This document shows, piece by piece, positions 50,581 to 58,755 of a DNA stretch of 64,000 nucleotides (within the stretch, counting starts at the first letter, position 1; each line of letters opens with the position of its first letter). Under the pieces are notes generated by a model. It searched no databases. It was given only the letters and a program-made list of their open reading frames with translations, and was not told the origin of the DNA. The position numbers and the translations under genes are program-made. Source of the DNA: Brevibacterium luteolum (GTDB lineage: Bacteria > Actinomycetota > Actinomycetes > Actinomycetales > Brevibacteriaceae); assembly GCF_013004595.1 (NCBI RefSeq), contig NZ_JABEMC010000010.1:1-64000 (forward strand), written 5' to 3'.

Positions 50581-51990
50581 CTACACCCGGGCAGGACGAT
50601 CGACCATAGCGGCCGGTTTCGTTGCGAGCGAAACGACGATCAGCACGACGATGGCGATCGGAGCGGCGATGACCACCGAACGGACTTCTTCGGCGGGGCC
50701 GAAGACCTCCCATAGGATTGTCGCGATCCCGCCGATCAGCATGGATGCCACTGCTCCCGCAGCGCTGGCACGCTTCCAGAACAGCGCCGCCAACACCGTG
50801 GGCGTCACCGCGGCCCCGTACATCGTGTAGGCGTACATCTGCAGTTCCAGCAGCGTGGGGAAGAACTGGACCATGACGAAGGCGAGCACGGCAACTGCAG
50901 CCACTGCGATTCGGCCGACGACAACCTGGCTGCGCTCGTGCGACGGTTCGCGACGGCGCCCACGGAACACGAGGTCGTAGACGATGTTGCCTGAGCATGT
51001 GAGCAGGTACGACGAACCGGTTGTGACGATGAGCGCCAGGGCGGCAACCAGGAGCGTCGCCCCAACGACTGCAGGGGTGAAGTCCCCTGCCGCAAGCCCG
51101 AGGATCGCCATATCGGCTTCAGACGATGGGTTCACGATCGTCGCTGCCGAGGCCAGCAGTATGATTGGCGCCACCATGAATATCGCACCGATAAAGAACA
51201 ACCCGGTTGCCTTGCGTGCGCTCGCCGGGCTCTGCGCAGCGGCAAGGCGCTGGTGCATGTTCTGGTCGCCAAGTACCAGGAGGAAGAGTGGGAGGAAGTA
51301 ACCCAGGATCTGCAGCGGGGTCAGTTTTCCGGTCACTGTGCGGAATGCCGGGTCGAGCTGGTTGACGTAGCCGCCGAAGCCGCCCAGGTCATGCACGAAA
51401 ACGAAGTACAGCGTTGCCAGCAAACCGATGACGATCAGCGCTGAAGAGAGGAAGTCGGTCCACGCTACGGATTTCAGTCCGCCTGACAGTGACAAGAAGG
51501 TGATGACGACAACGGCGATGAGCGTGCCCTGCACCTCGGACAGAGGTGTGATGAGGGTGAAGATGTAGCCTGCCCCGGTGAACTGGTACGCGGCGATCCC
51601 GATGAATGCGACGAGGACGACGATCGTACCGATGACACCCGTGGCCTGACCAAACCGTGCACGCAGCAGTTCTGGCACGGTGTGGAAGGAATTCTCGCGC
51701 ACTTTCTTCGCCATCAGAGACAGCGCGATGATTCCGACGAACGTGCCCAGGAAGAAGAAGACTCCCGGAATCGGCCCATTGGCGAAGATGAAGCTCGCTC
51801 CGCCGATGATCGAACCGGAACCGACGAAAGTCGCGAGCAGAGTGCCAGCGAGCACCCACGGTGGCAGGGATTGCCCGGCCAACATAAAATCCTCGCCGTC
51901 CTTCATCGCCGACTTACGAGAGAACCACGCAGCAACAAGGACCATGAGCAGTAGGTACCCGACCAGGACACTGATATTCACCACGGACAC
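50581..51990 (-). CDS. Sodium:solute symporter, RpiR-linked
   Basis: This 469-residue SSS-family Na+ symporter has about thirteen helices, with DFMLAGQSLPPWVLAGTLLATFVGSGSIIGG and the conserved SGGLKSVAWTDFLSS segment. It starts at GTG 51990 with AGGAGG. It is much less like the first SSS protein (27763-29370) than a recent duplicate would be. It lies downstream of the RpiR regulator with its own copy of the shared palindrome; the substrate is unknown, possibly a dipeptide or amino-acid derivative matching the amidohydrolase. Confidence 0.88.
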   Translation of the reverse strand: MSVVNISVLVGYLLLMVLVAAWFSRKSAMKDGEDFMLAGQSLPPWVLAGTLLATFVGSGSIIGGASFIFANGPIPGVFFFLGTFVGIIALSLMAKKVRENSFHTVPELLRARFGQATGVIGTIVVLVAFIGIAAYQFTGAGYIFTLITPLSEVQGTLIAVVVITFLSLSGGLKSVAWTDFLSSALIVIGLLATLYFVFVHDLGGFGGYVNQLDPAFRTVTGKLTPLQILGYFLPLFLLVLGDQNMHQRLAAAQSPASARKATGLFFIGAIFMVAPIILLASAATIVNPSSEADMAILGLAAGDFTPAVVGATLLVAALALIVTTGSSYLLTCSGNIVYDLVFRGRRREPSHERSQVVVGRIAVAAVAVLAFVMVQFFPTLLELQMYAYTMYGAAVTPTVLAALFWKRASAAGAVASMLIGGIATILWEVFGPAEEVRSVVIAAPIAIVVLIVVSLATKPAAMVDRPARV

Positions 51991-52049: not shown

Positions 52050-52065
52050 TGCAAGGACTTTTGCA
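52050..52065. promoter_or_regulatory. Predicted RpiR operator, symporter promoter
   Basis: TGCAAG-GACT-TTTGCA matches the site at 52970 in both arms except one base. It sits 60 bases upstream of the symporter start, in the 90-bp gap after the regulator gene. Confidence 0.6.
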
Positions 52066-52079
52066 GACTGCCCCGAGCG

Positions 52080-52964
52080 TCAGTCGAGAATCGCAGAAAC
52101 GTCCAACGCAGTCGGATCGTCCTTCACGACGCCAAGCCCATGCCAAAGCTGATCGACACGACGCAGGCTCTTCTCGACGTTCTCGCGATGTTCAGTGGCG
52201 ATGAGCTTGAGCACTGCCTGCACAACAGAGAACACTCCCGTCATCGACGGAAGGTACCGAGGACTTCCGCTCGACACGAGAATGGAGTGGTCGGCGGCTT
52301 CAGTCACAGCAGTCGAACGATCGGCGATGACGAGCAGAGGCACACCTCGAGAGGCGGCCTCCAGTGCCAGCTGATTGATGACGTCGGTGGTCTTCCAGAC
52401 GTTGAAGACCACGAGCACATCGTCTTCTCCGAGCCGCCTGGCGGCATTGATCTGCGCCGTGGCTGACCCGGCGTATTGCTCGACATTGAACCCGAAAAGC
52501 TGCGCACCATGCGCCAGCACACCGCCTGGCCCGGAACAGTAACCGGTCGCCAGGACCGCCGTACTGCGAGCCGAGGCGATCATCCGAGCGGCCGCAACCA
52601 TCTCGTCTTCGTCGATCGCCTCCAGCAGGAGCTCAAGCATCCGAATGTCTTCGGCGATCGAAGAACTCACTGTGCGATCAAAAGCAGCTTCACTCTGGCC
52701 CATAATGCGATCAGCAGTGAGGGTAGCGAGATAGTGGCCACGCAGGTCGGTCACGAAGTCCGGCCAGCCGCGATACCCCAGGTACTGAGCACAGCGCGTC
52801 GCTGAAGCAACGTTGACCCCGGCCATTGTCGCGACCTGCTGCGCAGTCGCGAACGCGGCAGTCTCAGGTTCAGACGAGATGACACCGAGCACACGCGCAA
52901 TCGCCGGAGAGGGAGTCCGGTCTCCAATGAGCTTCTCTATCCAGAGCACGGTGCCATCAGCCAT
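52080..52964 (-). CDS. RpiR/MurR-family regulator with SIS domain
   Basis: From ATG 52964 (AAAGGTG upstream) this is a 294-residue regulator. The N-terminal HTH_6 domain (about 5-80, ATAQQVATMAGVNVASATRCAQYLGYRGWPDFVTDLRG) is followed by a SIS domain (about 120-260, ILATG-like AVLATGYCSGPGG and VVFNVWKTTDVI). SIS domains commonly sense phospho-sugars, but RpiR members also control amino-acid or dipeptide genes. It is flanked by two copies of the same 16-bp palindrome, one before its own start. Confidence 0.88.
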   Translation of the reverse strand: MADGTVLWIEKLIGDRTPSPAIARVLGVISSEPETAAFATAQQVATMAGVNVASATRCAQYLGYRGWPDFVTDLRGHYLATLTADRIMGQSEAAFDRTVSSSIAEDIRMLELLLEAIDEDEMVAAARMIASARSTAVLATGYCSGPGGVLAHGAQLFGFNVEQYAGSATAQINAARRLGEDDVLVVFNVWKTTDVINQLALEAASRGVPLLVIADRSTAVTEAADHSILVSSGSPRYLPSMTGVFSVVQAVLKLIATEHRENVEKSLRRVDQLWHGLGVVKDDPTALDVSAILD

Positions 52965-52969
52965 CGTAT

Positions 52970-52985
52970 TGCAAACACCTTTGCA
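52970..52985. promoter_or_regulatory. Predicted RpiR operator between regulator and amidohydrolase
   Basis: TGCAAA-CACC-TTTGCA is a perfect inverted repeat, five bases upstream of the regulator start and 60 bases before the divergent amidohydrolase. Confidence 0.65.
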
Positions 52986-53045
52986 GCAGGTTACGTTTGA
53001 TCCAGACACAGCAGCTACCGCTTATCTGTCGGCAGGAGAGACCGG

Positions 53046-54272
53046 ATGCACCTAGATGAATCAATCACTGCTATCACCAACGTGCGGATTCTCGATCCAG
53101 TCACCGAAACCGTGTCTGAACCGCAGTCTATCCAGATCAACGGTGATCGGATTTCGAGCATCAGTGCGGCAAACAACGAGTCCGACTCCTCAATCGATGC
53201 CGGAGGAGCGATCGCGATACCCGGTCTCATCGACTGTCACGTTCACGTTCTGGCCAATACTGCAGACCTTGGACGCCTGGGTGATGAGTCGCCTGCATAC
53301 CTGACCGCGTCGGCCATCAACACGATGCAAGGTGCTCTCCGACGCGGTTTCACAACGCTTCGGGATGCCGGAGGTGCGGACTTCGGGCTGGCCAGGGCAG
53401 CTGCAGAGCAGCTATTCCTTGCACCTCGGCTGTTCTTCGGCGGGAAGGCTCTGTCTCAAACCGGCGGCCATGCCGATATGCGCGGACCGGGGACGTCCAT
53501 CGTCGACCAGCACCAGTGCTGCCCGCACATTGGGACGGTGTGCGACGGCGTCGATGAAGTCCGCAAGGCCGCTCGCATGCAGTTGCGGACAGGTGCGGAC
53601 CACATCAAGATCATGCTCTCGGGCGGCGTCGCTTCGCCAACCGACCGAATCGACTCTACACAGTTCTCTGATGAGGAGATTCGGGCCGCCGTCGAAGAGG
53701 CAGCCGCTTCAAACCGCTACGTTCTCGGACACGCCTACACTGCCCGCGCGATCAACCGTGGGCTGAAGCTCGGGGTCCGCTCTATCGAGCACGGCAACCT
53801 TCTCGATGACGAGAGCATCAGACTCTTCACTGAGAACGACGCGTTCCTCGTGCCGACTCTTGTGACTTATGAACGGTTGAAGGCCGAAGGAGTCCGCCAC
53901 GGACTGCCGCAGGCAAGCGCCGACAAGGTCGACAGTGTGCTCTACGCAGGCCTGAAGGCACTCGAAGCCGCGGATCAGGGCGGGGTCAACATCGCGTACG
54001 GCTCTGACCTGCTGGGTGACATGTGGAAATGGCAGAGCAAAGAGTTCGAGATCCGTTCGCAAGTCCAGTCCGCTGGTGCCGTCCTGCGTTCTGCGACAAC
54101 AGTGGCCGCTCGCCTGTTGGATCAGGAAGGCGAACTCGGAATCATCCGCGAAGGCGCTCAGGCCGATATTGTCCTCTTGAACGCCAATCCGCTCGATGAC
54201 ATTACTGTGCTGGCGGAACCGCAGAAGTCGGTGCGTCACGTTTTCGTCCGCGGAGGCCTGGTTCACGCATAA
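53046..54272 (+). CDS. Metal-dependent amidohydrolase (imidazolonepropionase/prolidase-like)
   Basis: This 408-residue amidohydrolase-superfamily enzyme shows the full metal centre: HxH in LIDCHVHVLAN, a carboxylated Lys in DHIKIMLSGG, His in VLGHAYTARA, His in SIEHGNLLDDE, and the catalytic Asp in IAYGSDLLGDM. The pattern matches the Sgx9260-type Xaa-Pro/Xaa-Lys/Arg carboxypeptidase group and related N-acyl amino acid hydrolases. It is cytoplasmic. Its shared operator with the symporter suggests import followed by hydrolysis of an amide or dipeptide. Confidence 0.88.
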   Translation: MHLDESITAITNVRILDPVTETVSEPQSIQINGDRISSISAANNESDSSIDAGGAIAIPGLIDCHVHVLANTADLGRLGDESPAYLTASAINTMQGALRRGFTTLRDAGGADFGLARAAAEQLFLAPRLFFGGKALSQTGGHADMRGPGTSIVDQHQCCPHIGTVCDGVDEVRKAARMQLRTGADHIKIMLSGGVASPTDRIDSTQFSDEEIRAAVEEAAASNRYVLGHAYTARAINRGLKLGVRSIEHGNLLDDESIRLFTENDAFLVPTLVTYERLKAEGVRHGLPQASADKVDSVLYAGLKALEAADQGGVNIAYGSDLLGDMWKWQSKEFEIRSQVQSAGAVLRSATTVAARLLDQEGELGIIREGAQADIVLLNANPLDDITVLAEPQKSVRHVFVRGGLVHA

Positions 54273-54356: not shown

Positions 54357-54415
54357 CGCGAAGTCGTGTGTTGCTAAGGCCGGCAACCGTTGCCGGCTCA
54401 GCGCACGACTTCGCG
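54357..54415. terminator. Nested hairpin straddling the selB stop codon
   Basis: An outer stem CGCGAAGTCGTG (54357-54368) pairs perfectly with CACGACTTCGCG (54404-54415, the last codons of selB). Inside is a second hairpin GCCGGCA/TGCCGGC (54379-54397). There is no T-tract. It may terminate both converging transcripts or protect the selB mRNA 3' end. Confidence 0.6.
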
Positions 54416-56206
54416 CAGGTTGCCGTCCAGCCGGCGGGTCCAGCCGCGGGAGTCGAGGTGTTCGAGCAGCGGGATCGCGATCCGGCGGGTGGTGCCGAGT
54501 GCCTGCCGGGCCTGGCTGGCGGTGAAGGGCTGGTCGAGTGCGGCCAGCACCCGCATCGCCTGGGCCGGTGCGCTCGGGAGCAGCACCACGCCCTCAGAGA
54601 TGCGGATGAGCCGGCCGGTCCGTTCGGCAGCCGCGAGCTCCCTGGAACCCAGGTTCAGCCGAGCCAGATCGTCGGCTTCCGGAGCGCTGAAGGGGCTGGC
54701 TGCCAGCTGCCGTTCGAGTGCGGCGATGCCCTTCTCCGCCCGGCCCAAATCAGCCCGCTGCTGCAGCGGGCGGATGAGCCCGTCGCGCTGCCGGAGCCTG
54801 GCGGCTTTGATGACGGCATCGAGCAGCTCTGCGTGCGGCAGTTCGAGAGCATGCGCGGCAGCCTGACGGCTGAGGCCTGGTGAGAGCGCATCGGTTTTAA
54901 GGTGGGCGGCAAGCAGCTGCCGCAGGCGAGACGCCCAGGTGCGCACCGCCTCGGCGGTGGCCAGCCAGTCGCCGATCGCAACGACGCCTGCCGGCAGCTG
55001 GACCCCAGCAAGCTCACCGATGTCGAATCCGAAGCGCCGAAGCGTCTCCACGCGCACTGCCTGCCGGCGGGTGACCTCGGCTGCCACCGACCCGCCAGCC
55101 GGCAGTTCGGCCAACGCCTCGGCGCGCCTGTGCCCGGCCCCGCGGCGGGTCAGGGCCGGCGGGTCGAGGTCGAGGACCTGCACGCCGGCAACCACCATCT
55201 TCGCCCCGGAGTCGCGCAGCACCATTCGATCACCGAGCTGCAGGGGCAGCGGCCGGCTGAGCTGCAGCCGCGCATGATCGGCATCGAAGGGCCGCAGCCT
55301 GGCCCCGATCGCAGCAGTGCCGATGTGGACGGTGATGTGCTCGCTGCCCTCATCGAGCGCCCCGCCTGAAGCCCATCGGACATCGACGGTGTCGGTGATC
55401 CACCAGTCGGCGGAGATGAGCGCGTCCCCACGGTGCACTTCGGCTGCCGGCATGCCGCGCAGGTTCAGTGCCGCCCGGCTCACCGGTTCGAGCACCTCGG
55501 ACTGCTGACCGCGGGACTGCAGCCCGCGGACGGTGACCTCATTCGGCTCGCCGGTCTCTTGCCCGATGAGCTGCAGCCGCTCACCTGCCCGCACCGTGCC
55601 GCCGGCGAGCGTGCCGGTGATAACCGTGCCCGACCCTGCGATCGTGAACGCCCGGTCGACCCACAGGCGCAGCCGGGTGTGAGGGTCCGGCTCCGGCAGC
55701 CCGGCAAGCACTCCGTCAAGAGCCCCGCGCACCTCGTCGAGTCCCTCACCGGTGACGCCGGAGCAGGCGACGATCGGTGCAGCGGCCAATCCGGTCCCGC
55801 GCAGTTCGGCACGCGCCCGGGCCGTCACCTCGGGCACGGCGTCCGGGGCGCGGTCACGGCGGGTGATGACGATCAGACCTGCCGTGATGCCGAGGGCTGC
55901 AATCGCGTCGCGGTGCTCGCTCGACTGCGCCTGCCAGCCTTCATCGGCGGCGATGACGAAACAGACGACGGGGACGGGTCCGAGGCCGGCGAGCATATTG
56001 CCGACGTAGCGTTCGTGGCCGGGCACGTCGACGAAGGCGACCTGGCGGCCAGACGGCAGGGCCGTCCACGCGAAGCCGAGGTCGATGGTCAGCCCGCGTT
56101 TGCGCTCTTCAGCCCACCGGTCGGGTTCGATTCCGGTCAGTGCCCGCACGAGCGTCGATTTGCCGTGGTCGACGTGCCCGGCGGTGGCGATGACGAAGCT
56201 GCTCAT
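54398..56206 (-). CDS. selB: Selenocysteine-specific elongation factor
   Basis: This 602-residue factor delivers Sec-tRNA to UGA codons at SECIS hairpins. The EF-Tu-like GTPase part has GHVDHGKST, DVPGHE and an atypical fourth motif (TRRD in place of NKxD), then two beta-barrels. The C-terminal half (about 370-602) is the winged-helix SECIS-binding region, with VLAALDQPFTASQARQALGTTRRIAIPLLEHLDSRGWTRR as the last winged helix. It overlaps selA by four bases. Confidence 0.94.
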   Translation of the reverse strand: MSSFVIATAGHVDHGKSTLVRALTGIEPDRWAEERKRGLTIDLGFAWTALPSGRQVAFVDVPGHERYVGNMLAGLGPVPVVCFVIAADEGWQAQSSEHRDAIAALGITAGLIVITRRDRAPDAVPEVTARARAELRGTGLAAAPIVACSGVTGEGLDEVRGALDGVLAGLPEPDPHTRLRLWVDRAFTIAGSGTVITGTLAGGTVRAGERLQLIGQETGEPNEVTVRGLQSRGQQSEVLEPVSRAALNLRGMPAAEVHRGDALISADWWITDTVDVRWASGGALDEGSEHITVHIGTAAIGARLRPFDADHARLQLSRPLPLQLGDRMVLRDSGAKMVVAGVQVLDLDPPALTRRGAGHRRAEALAELPAGGSVAAEVTRRQAVRVETLRRFGFDIGELAGVQLPAGVVAIGDWLATAEAVRTWASRLRQLLAAHLKTDALSPGLSRQAAAHALELPHAELLDAVIKAARLRQRDGLIRPLQQRADLGRAEKGIAALERQLAASPFSAPEADDLARLNLGSRELAAAERTGRLIRISEGVVLLPSAPAQAMRVLAALDQPFTASQARQALGTTRRIAIPLLEHLDSRGWTRRLDGNLREVVR

Positions 56207-57552
56207 CTGCCGTTCCCGAGGCGGCCGCCGGCAGCCCTGATGGCATCGGCGAGTGCCGGGTCCTGGTCTGCGGGGATGCAGCGCAGGTCGATGAGGCAGC
56301 TGCCGTCATGCACGCGCGGCAGGACGGCCGGGTCGCCGGTGCGCAGGGCTGGGGCGAAGTCCTCGGGCAGGGCGAGCGCCCAGCCCGGCAGCGGCACCCC
56401 GGTGCCGCCACCGCCGCCTACCCGGCCGTCATGTGCCACGACGGTGCCGCCGACCTGCGCGGTGAGGGCGTCGGTGCGGCGGCGCAGCTCAGCAGGGTCG
56501 GCGTGCAGCATCGCATGCACCGGGCTGGTGCCGGCACGCAGCGTAGCGTCGAGTGCGGCGAGGGTGAGCTTGTCGGCGCGGACGGCGCGGGCCAGCGGGT
56601 GACGGGCGAGCCGGGCGATCGTCTCAGAGGTGCCGAGCAGCAGCCCGGCCTGCGGGCCGCCGAGGAGTTTGTCACCGGAGGCGATGACGGCATCGGCTCC
56701 CGCCGCCAGGGCCGCCTCGATGCTCGGCTCGTCCGGCAGGACGGGATCGGCGCTCAGCAGTCCGGAGCCGACGTCGACGATGAGGGGCACGGAGTGCTCA
56801 CGGCACAGTGCGGCGAGCGCGGCGGTCTCGACGGCGGCGGTGAAGCCGGTGAGCGCGAAGTTCGAGGGGTGGACTTTGAGCACGCAGCCGGCTCCAGCGT
56901 CGAGGGCGGTGGCGTAGTCCTCTGGGTGGGTGCGATTCGTGGTGCCGACTTCGCGCAGCTGCGTGCCGGCAGCGGTGATGAGGTCGGAGAGCCGGAAGCC
57001 GGCACCGATCTCGATGAACTCCCCGCGGCTGATGACGATCCCACCGTGGCCGGGTCCCTCCTGCCCGCCTCCGCCGGCTGCCGGTCCCCCGCCCAGTGCG
57101 GTGGCGGCCAGCAGCAGCGCGGCCGCGCCGTTGTTGACGATGAGCGCATCCTCGGCATGCGGGCAGCGCTGCAGCAGGGCCGCCCGTGCTGCGGCTCCGC
57201 GCCGGGACCGGGCGCCGGAAGGCAGGTCGAGTTCGACGTCGACGTACCCTGCGGCATCGGCCAGGGCCTGCTGGGCGGGCTCGCCCAAGGGGGCGCGGCC
57301 GAGGTTGGTGTGGATGATGACGCCGGTGGCGTTGAGCACCGGGGTCAGGGAGGAGGCCCGCTGGGAGCCGACGGCCTCAAGCACCGTCTCGACCACCTCG
57401 GCGGCGGGGATCTCCCCGCGGCGGGCACGGGCCTGGGCGGCGCGCACGAGCCCGAGCACCACGCTGCGGCCGAGTGAGCGGCTGGCGGCGATGAGCTGCG
57501 GATGCTCCATGAGCCGGTCGGTGCGCGGGATGGCGCGACGCGGGTCCTCCAC
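56203..57552 (-). CDS. selA: L-seryl-tRNA(Sec) selenium transferase
   Basis: This 449-residue PLP enzyme converts Ser-tRNA(Sec) to Sec-tRNA(Sec) with selenophosphate. The PLP lysine lies in VIASGDKLLGGPQAGLLLG; VINTNLGRAPLGE-like VIIHTNLGRAPLGEPA and NNGAAALLLAATAL are conserved. GTG 57552 has GAGGAGG upstream. It lies just downstream of the tRNA-Sec gene on the same strand and is coupled to selB. Confidence 0.95.
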   Translation of the reverse strand: MEDPRRAIPRTDRLMEHPQLIAASRSLGRSVVLGLVRAAQARARRGEIPAAEVVETVLEAVGSQRASSLTPVLNATGVIIHTNLGRAPLGEPAQQALADAAGYVDVELDLPSGARSRRGAAARAALLQRCPHAEDALIVNNGAAALLLAATALGGGPAAGGGGQEGPGHGGIVISRGEFIEIGAGFRLSDLITAAGTQLREVGTTNRTHPEDYATALDAGAGCVLKVHPSNFALTGFTAAVETAALAALCREHSVPLIVDVGSGLLSADPVLPDEPSIEAALAAGADAVIASGDKLLGGPQAGLLLGTSETIARLARHPLARAVRADKLTLAALDATLRAGTSPVHAMLHADPAELRRRTDALTAQVGGTVVAHDGRVGGGGGTGVPLPGWALALPEDFAPALRTGDPAVLPRVHDGSCLIDLRCIPADQDPALADAIRAAGGRLGNGR

Positions 57553-57576
57553 GATCCTCCTCGACTCTGAAGCCAG

Positions 57577-57671
57577 TGGCGGAGGCGGACGGGAATCGAA
57601 CCCGCCAGACCGAGGTGCTCGGTCTCACCGGTTTTGAAGACCGGGGGGCCCACCAGGACCCGGACGCCTCC
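57577..57671 (-). tRNA. selC: tRNA-Sec (anticodon UCA)
   Basis: On the minus strand, GGAGGCG at 57671-57665 pairs with the CGCCTCC that precedes the encoded GCCA at 57580-57577. The anticodon loop CTTCAAA gives UCA (TGA on the plus strand, 57635-57637). A long variable arm GAGACCGAGCACCTCGGTCT and T-arm GGGTTCGATTCCC follow. About 95 bases, the long-variable-arm form expected for selenocysteine tRNA. Confidence 0.92.
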
Positions 57672-57705
57672 GCGCTCCAACCTACCACCACCTATACTCG
57701 CGGGC

Positions 57706-58755
57706 ATGGACATCACAGATGCACACACGTCCTCACCTCGACTGACATCGTTGGCCGCCGGCGGCGGCTGTGCGTGCAAGATCCCTCCCGGTGAGCTCGA
57801 AGACGCACTCGCAGCGCTCACCGGCCAGACCGGCCCTGATGTGCTCGTCGGCCTCGATGACGGCGATGATGCCGCCGCCGTGCAGATCCGCGGGGATCTG
57901 GCGGTGCTCTCAACAGCTGATTTCTTCACCCCGGTCGTCGACTCCGCCTACGACTGGGGGCGGATCGCTGCGGCGAATGCGCTCTCGGACATCTACGCGA
58001 TGGGCGGGGTGCCTGTCGTGGCGATCAACCTCATCGGCTGGCCGCGCGAGGTGCTGCCGATGGAGCTCATGAGCGAGGTGCTCGCCGGCGGGGTCGCGGT
58101 CGCCGAGGAGGTCGGCTGCCCGGTCATCGGCGGGCATTCGATCACCGCACCCGAACCGATCTACGGAATGGCTGTCACCGGGACCGCAGACCCGTCCCGG
58201 CTGCTGCGCAATGACGCCGCCGAGGCGGGTCTGCCGCTCACGTTGACGAAACCGCTGGGCGTGGGTGTGCTGAACAATCGGCACAAGGCCACTGGCGAGG
58301 TGTTCGATGAGGCGATCGAGACGATGACGACACTCAATGCCACCGCCTCGGCTGCCGCACTCGAGGCCGGGGTCACCGCCGCGACCGATGTCACCGGGTT
58401 CGGGCTGCTCGGGCATCTGCACAAGATGTGCCGGGCTTCCGGCATCGGCGCGGAGATCGACATGGCCGCCGTGCCGGTGCTCGATGCCGCGGTGCGCAGT
58501 CTGGCCGAGGGGTTTGTGCCCGGTGGGACGAGGCGCAATCTCGACTGGGTGCGCTCGGAGCTCGACGGTTCTTCTGCTGCCGACGGTTCCCGTTCGGTCG
58601 GCACTCTCGAGGTGGGTGCCGGGGTGAGCGAGGAGGACGTGCTCATGCTCGCCGATGCGCAGACGTCCGGTGGGCTGCTCGTCGTCGGTGAGCTGCCCGG
58701 CCACCCGGTCATCGGCGTCACCCGCGCCGAGCCTGGCATCAGCATCCGGCGGTAG
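57706..58755 (+). CDS. selD: Selenophosphate synthetase
   Basis: This 349-residue enzyme makes selenophosphate from selenide and ATP. The active-site loop is AAGGGCACKIPP with Cys22 (not Sec) and Lys25. The Asp residues of LVGLDDGDDAAAV bind metal-ATP; DFFTPVVDSAYDWGRIAAANALSDIYAMGG and VTAATDVTGFGLLGHL are conserved. ATG 57706 starts 34 bases from the divergent tRNA-Sec, so the two share a promoter region. Confidence 0.94.
   Translation: MDITDAHTSSPRLTSLAAGGGCACKIPPGELEDALAALTGQTGPDVLVGLDDGDDAAAVQIRGDLAVLSTADFFTPVVDSAYDWGRIAAANALSDIYAMGGVPVVAINLIGWPREVLPMELMSEVLAGGVAVAEEVGCPVIGGHSITAPEPIYGMAVTGTADPSRLLRNDAAEAGLPLTLTKPLGVGVLNNRHKATGEVFDEAIETMTTLNATASAAALEAGVTAATDVTGFGLLGHLHKMCRASGIGAEIDMAAVPVLDAAVRSLAEGFVPGGTRRNLDWVRSELDGSSAADGSRSVGTLEVGAGVSEEDVLMLADAQTSGGLLVVGELPGHPVIGVTRAEPGISIRR

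Follow-up and report, generated by a model that had tools for sequence, protein, structure and literature searches.

Genome annotation routinely labels RpiR-type regulators as phosphosugar sensors. What does such a regulator control, and what does it sense, when its gene lies between those of a symporter and an amidohydrolase, as in Brevibacterium luteolum? We analysed a stretch of 64,000 nucleotides from this organism (the window), in which open reading frames and domain searches delimit a module of three genes with two candidate operators:

50581..51990, minus strand: SSS-family symporter gene, 469 codons from GTG, Pfam SSF 135.2 bits
52050..52065, no strand: candidate operator 2, TGCAAGGACTTTTGCA, between rpiR and the symporter gene; at most one core mismatch in 12 of 12 same-genus carriers
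52080..52964, minus strand: RpiR-type regulator gene (rpiR), 294 codons from ATG, HTH_6 and predicted SIS fold
52395..52397, minus strand: W190 codon of rpiR, where classical SIS regulators have their second phosphate-binding Ser; position derived from the start of rpiR
52970..52985, no strand: candidate operator 1, TGCAAACACCTTTGCA, between rpiR and the divergent amidohydrolase gene; exact core in 12 of 12 same-genus carriers
53046..54272, plus strand: amidohydrolase gene, 408 codons, COG1228 prolidase/aminoacylase-like, Amidohydro_1 137.9 bits

Counted upstream from the rpiR start codon (ATG, 52964), operator 1 spans 6-21 bp; its distance to the amidohydrolase ATG at 53046 is 60 bp, and operator 2 ends 59 bp ahead of the symporter GTG (51990). 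If rpiR began instead with the GTG at 53009, the gene would be 15 codons longer and would include operator 1. The original prediction was that a 16-bp palindrome, TGCAAA-N4-TTTGCA, perfect at 52970 and nearly so at 52050, serves both promoter regions as a shared RpiR operator. None of the 12 specified bases differs at the first site and one differs at the second, the places were confirmed and the sharing is supported; the sixth base of each arm, in contrast, is not general, and the conserved form is TGCAA-N6-TTGCA (the core). A third match to the 16-mer within two mismatches was not found elsewhere in the 64,000-nt window. Taken alone, shuffles of the window are weak evidence for the palindrome: two or more 16-mer matches with up to two mismatches arose in 9 of 100 shuffles, and the figure for the 10-base core within one mismatch was 17 of 100. 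For the 2.97-Mb genome, base composition leads one to expect 0.02 exact 12-base matches and 0.76 exact cores. The exact core is present exactly twice, both times within the module (reversed control, 1), and the 16-mer within two mismatches at 13 places (one exact, three with one mismatch and nine with two; reversed control, 8). Many unrelated genomic copies were thus looked for and did not appear, which supports the idea of a self-contained regulon. A wider regulon through the two remaining one-mismatch sites was considered and rejected, as neither is promoter-like: one (L076) lies inside a coding region, presumably that of a sigma factor, and the other (L077) just past a gene end. For four of the nine two-mismatch sites, the surroundings were fetched and their open reading frames listed.

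Comparison within the genus decides that the palindrome is more than a chance occurrence. Among 60 genomes of the family, 57 of them from the same genus, the pair of rpiR and amidohydrolase genes is found in 12 of the 57 same-genus genomes (amidohydrolase identity at least 66%), in one of which (G051) the module is split across two contigs. In all 12, the core is present with at most one mismatch (mismatches counted by eye) at two places, between the divergent genes and before the symporter gene. Outside the module, exact cores are absent from six of 11 module-bearing Brevibacterium genomes, including that of the window, and number one in each of the other five, with reversed-pattern controls giving 0 to 5. 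The nearest named record is B. gallinarum Re57, whose regulator and amidohydrolase proteins are identical to those of the window over the aligned length. Although these proteins are the same, its symporter operator, CGCAAGGAATTTTGCA (L002, 1468-1483), differs from 52050-52065 by two base changes, and could serve in binding tests as a natural operator variant.

The arrangement extends well beyond this genus. A scan of named genomes, in which the best 80 of 114 regulator relatives were kept, reached 20 actinobacterial genera by name, plus one record labelled Vibrio cholerae; the 80 loci are interrelated and were fetched with patterns from the HTH region, so that the following counts are not independent trials. 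Sixty of these best 80 of 114 loci have an exact core ahead of the regulator gene, and 79 have one with at most one mismatch, compared with 0 exact and 0.25 one-mismatch cores per 80 loci in a shuffle control; the single locus without it (L134) has just 24 bp of upstream sequence. The spacing is fixed: exact arms separated by 10 bp occur in 6 of the 80 loci and by 11 bp in 2, and none were seen at 2-5, 7-9 or 12 bp. Of the 33 loci where a symporter gene follows the regulator (a list compiled by hand), 31 have a second operator there, vs none of the 47 others of the best 80; the two symporter loci without it are L163 and L109, where a one-mismatch site lies one base outside the scripted stretch. 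The proposed sharing of one operator between the promoter regions is thus supported by the conservation of both sites. An amidohydrolase gene was counted by hand within the fetched stretch at 67 of the best 80 of 114 loci, and the remaining 13 comprise 11 loci of Brevibacterium paralogues, one Corynebacterium locus with a DUF2891 gene and one contig end. Nine genomes from other genera contain 26 exact cores, of which 15 belong to the module; most of the excess outside it comes from Corynebacterium (2 of 8 in the module, against 4 for the control) and Leucobacter (2 of 5, against 0). Phylum-wide, a profile of the regulator matches 42 of 396 genomes. On sequence grounds, the regulator is a variant of a known family that is conserved far outside its own genome.

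The position of the core relative to likely promoters bears on its role. Spacings from 8 to 29 bp were scored from the hexamer that begins with the right arm of the operator, TTGCA, to a -10-like hexamer. On the symporter side, such hexamers occur at 17-18 bp in 9 of 31 distinct operators and at no other spacing, and on the divergent amidohydrolase side in 13 of 75, with one at most at any other spacing; a strict -10 hexamer at 17-18 bp is absent for most operators, the window's included (22/31 and 62/75). Toward rpiR there is no peak at 17-18 bp (6 of 77 at 21 bp and 4 at 10 bp). The symporter side of the window reads TTGCAC, 16 bp, TAACTAT on the minus strand, where the strict -10 test failed, and a consensus scan of the window found no promoter. 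Since the right arm occupies the place of a -35 box, repression by covering the -35 box appears to be the best reading, and the pattern fits a repressor.

The regulator itself combines an HTH_6 domain (28.6 bits in a six-frame search vs a cut-off of 28.3; 26.4 bits on the protein alone) with a C-terminal SIS domain seen in the predicted fold (pLDDT 89; Z 25.6 to 3SHO and 23.3 to MurR), the Pfam SIS score of 17.9 bits lying under the cut-off of 25. It resembles MurR, AlsR, YebK, NanR and RccR in its HTH_6 and SIS domains, predicted fold, divergent autoregulated layout and near-palindromic operator. In pneumococcal NanR (PMC12713135), Ser135, Ser179, Ser181 and Thr184 hold the phosphate, and effector binding is abolished in an S179A/S181A/T184A variant; we mapped these residues onto other RpiR proteins by motif. 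The S/T-x-S/T-G phosphate motif, which is common but not universal in the MurR/RpiR family, reads I-S-Y-S-G, I-S-H-T-G and V-T-H-S-G in E. coli MurR, YebK and AlsR and is absent from the window regulator, which has N188-V189-W190-K191 instead. The only other RpiR protein of the same genome in an HTH_6 search keeps it. Trp occupies the W190 position in all of the best 80 of 114 relatives and is invariant in a 42-row alignment; the next residue is Lys or Arg in most relatives and Met or Trp in six. The first-loop Ser is replaced by Cys in the window regulator and often by Tyr in relatives. Remnants of a phosphate site persist in T193, three residues past W190, and in the first motif Ser, which many relatives keep. 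Besides this Trp, what sets the regulator apart from the MurR/RpiR family is its operator, TGCAA-N6-TTGCA, and its partnership with an amide-type enzyme without sugar genes. The closest solved relative, 3SHO, the SIS domain of a Sphaerobacter thermophilus RpiR protein, likewise has V-W-R at the motif, which indicates that the Trp variant extends beyond actinobacteria; with at most 24% identity to the window regulator and no named ligand or regulon, it does not settle the effector. Because S-x-S-G is lost and Trp stands in its place, a non-phosphosugar effector is likely, such as a dipeptide, an N-acyl amino acid or a product thereof. This lends indirect support to the earlier suggestion that the SIS domain may sense something other than a phospho-sugar.

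The best solved relatives of the amidohydrolase are the M38 prolidases of COG1228, Sgx9260c (3FEQ/3N2C, 352 bits) and Sgx9260b (3MKV, 318.5 bits), with which it shares the metal residues, the oxyanion His and the carboxylate-binding Tyr. The catalytic residues H65, H67, H142, K188, H229, Y231, H249 and D321 are all present, and among its homologues seven of these eight positions are conserved in 66 of 66 and D321 in the 65 of 65 that cover it; their roles in the COG1228/M38 group (four metal His, an Asp, a carboxylated Lys, the oxyanion His and the Tyr) are those given in PMC10781821, which describes a related enzyme as an aminoacylase. Sgx9260c acts on Gly-Pro, Ala-Pro and N-acyl-proline (PMC11342369). 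In contrast to these prolidases, the function of the window enzyme is predicted from its sequence, and it scores 226.5 bits with the NCBIfam Xaa-Pro dipeptidase equivalog NF051886, short of the cut-off of 500. An amide of an amino acid is its likely substrate, and one of the proline type is plausible. A part of this enzyme in ochratoxin degradation by Brevibacterium is conceivable but not claimed here; ochratoxinase scores 161 bits vs 352 and 318.5 for the solved prolidases, and the paper that bears on this idea does not name Brevibacterium. The symporter (Pfam SSF cut-off, 22.8 bits) shares the SSS family with the sodium/proline carrier PutP and the pantothenate carrier PanF over most of its length. 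Scores with these nearest curated models are far under the equivalog cut-offs (PutP, TIGR02121, 119.8 of 515.5; PanF, 84.6 of 328), and its substrate is therefore not assigned. Regulator, amidohydrolase and carrier genes are what is conserved in the module, where no sugar enzyme came to light, and clustering of open reading frames from 26 chosen loci, a crude method in which many clusters are shadow frames, gave no further conserved function in the neighbourhood.

The reading that we prefer, with a probability of roughly 60%, is that of a local, autoregulated scavenging regulon in which RpiR represses the symporter and amidohydrolase genes through TGCAA-N6-TTGCA, and a small amide or its product is the effector. 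It starts from what can be read directly from the sequences (gene layout, the two sites with their spacing, conservation and near-confinement, intact catalytic residues and a lost phosphate motif), and we infer from there DNA binding, the sign of regulation, effector and substrate. The RpiR protein would bind the core at two places, in the divergent rpiR/amidohydrolase region and before the symporter gene; with the right arm in place of the -35 box at the target promoters, the bound protein would exclude RNA polymerase, and at operator 1 it would also lie over the rpiR leader and thereby regulate its own synthesis. The compound entering the cell would be a small amino-acid amide, for which an Xaa-Pro dipeptide or something similar to N-acyl-proline is the likeliest candidate, and either it or its cleavage product would bind the altered SIS pocket and release the operators. 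Symporter and hydrolase would then rise together, and the freed amino acid would be used. As the module has only three genes, effector and substrate are directly searchable.

Identical operators and targets would also be compatible with a phosphorylated effector, be it a sugar as before or some other metabolite, for which the pocket has rearranged. The match of the fold to phosphosugar-binding SIS domains (3SHO and MurR), the conserved T193 and the first motif Ser retained by many relatives speak for such a ligand, which we nevertheless consider rather unlikely, because the second motif Ser is Trp throughout the best 80 of 114 relatives, Cys has replaced the first-loop Ser of the window regulator and the module is without a visible sugar enzyme. 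The sign of regulation could likewise differ, the protein acting from the same palindromes as an activator that aids the polymerase when the effector is present. RpiR activators exist in pneumococcal NanR (PMC12713135) and Lactococcus GlaR (PMC6528599); an operator arm at the expected place of the -35 box argues against activation here, and we regard it as improbable.

Two further explanations concern the palindrome itself. It might be the site of another regulator that flanks rpiR by coincidence, and the core does occur beside a cupin-HTH gene (L206) and a distant RpiR gene (L203). Yet it accompanies this RpiR clade at 79 of the best 80 of 114 loci and its second copy is present only where a symporter gene follows, which makes a coincidence very improbable. 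That the palindromes arose by chance is in line with the 9 of 100 window shuffles that reach two matches, but is contradicted by the comparative data, both positions being conserved in 12 of 12 same-genus carriers and across genera, and we give it practically no credence. The local scavenging regulon under RpiR repression remains our preferred reading.

Beyond this locus, one may tentatively think of a large actinobacterial class of RpiR proteins, an idea we hold to be possible but somewhat doubtful, in which the SIS domain has turned into a sensor of amides, dipeptides or amino acids, with Trp at the phosphate place and one operator class, TGCAA-N6-TTGCA, serving varied scavenging modules. 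If true, these modules would pair a prolidase-like enzyme with either a symporter or a carrier of the MFS type, and those of relatives would contain genes for hydantoinase, oligopeptide uptake or aminotransferase. At a Nonomuraea locus (L148), an MFS-type carrier gene is divergent from the regulator gene and ahead of the amidohydrolase gene, with one operator; genes like it cluster in 8 of the 26 loci, in one case far from the regulator gene. A paralogue of the regulator in B. aurantiacum (L091) adjoins oligopeptide-transport genes, and in another genus of the family (L073) hydantoinase A and B genes precede the gene of a relative with 30% identity; the stretch from this regulator gene to one for a solute-binding protein contains a perfect 16-mer. 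The distant RpiR protein of B. gallinarum (24% identity; L203, 1653) has S-I-Q-R at the motif and no S-x-S-G; its gene is divergent from an aminotransferase gene, which is followed by one for an NMT1-like protein, and an exact core lies in between. Two RpiR regulators may thus share operators in one B. gallinarum cell. Exact cores were also located near homologous oxidoreductase/methyltransferase genes (59% identical) at L205 (1789) and L206 (1528). Because the latter adjoins a cupin-HTH regulator, the core alone is no proof of RpiR control, and a different regulator may use a similar palindrome there. RpiR-type HpxY near the oxamate genes of Klebsiella is reportedly a precedent. Searches of the open-licence PMC literature gave no title or abstract opening that mentions the operator TGCAA-N6-TTGCA or RpiR control of such an enzyme, and no paper on RpiR together with Brevibacterium. 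With a widespread group that lacks the motif and has a defined operator and amide-related partners, annotation as phosphosugar sensor may mislead, and the operator allows target prediction in many actinobacteria.

Several single loci deserve mention. In Corynebacterium propinquum (L129, 4852-5898), a DUF2891 gene (PF11199) takes the position of the amidohydrolase gene and both operators are kept. This one case hints that DUF2891 may act on a substrate similar to that of the amidohydrolase. A DUF2891 search matched 15 of 151 genomes, with regulator and operators in the fetched flanks at the C. propinquum locus only; the regulator was found in 3 of the same 151. The record labelled Vibrio cholerae 35D (L114) carries an Arthrobacter-like module and is probably mislabelled or contaminated. 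At three loci (L101, 5981/5993; L119, 6874/6886; L160, 5924/5936), core matches are paired at a shift of 12 bp and share one arm; such pairs could be tandem half-sites for a tetramer. Finally, the window also contains a selenocysteine cluster at 54398-58755, with tRNA-Sec on the minus strand at 57577-57671 surrounded by open reading frames that are putatively selB, selA and selD.
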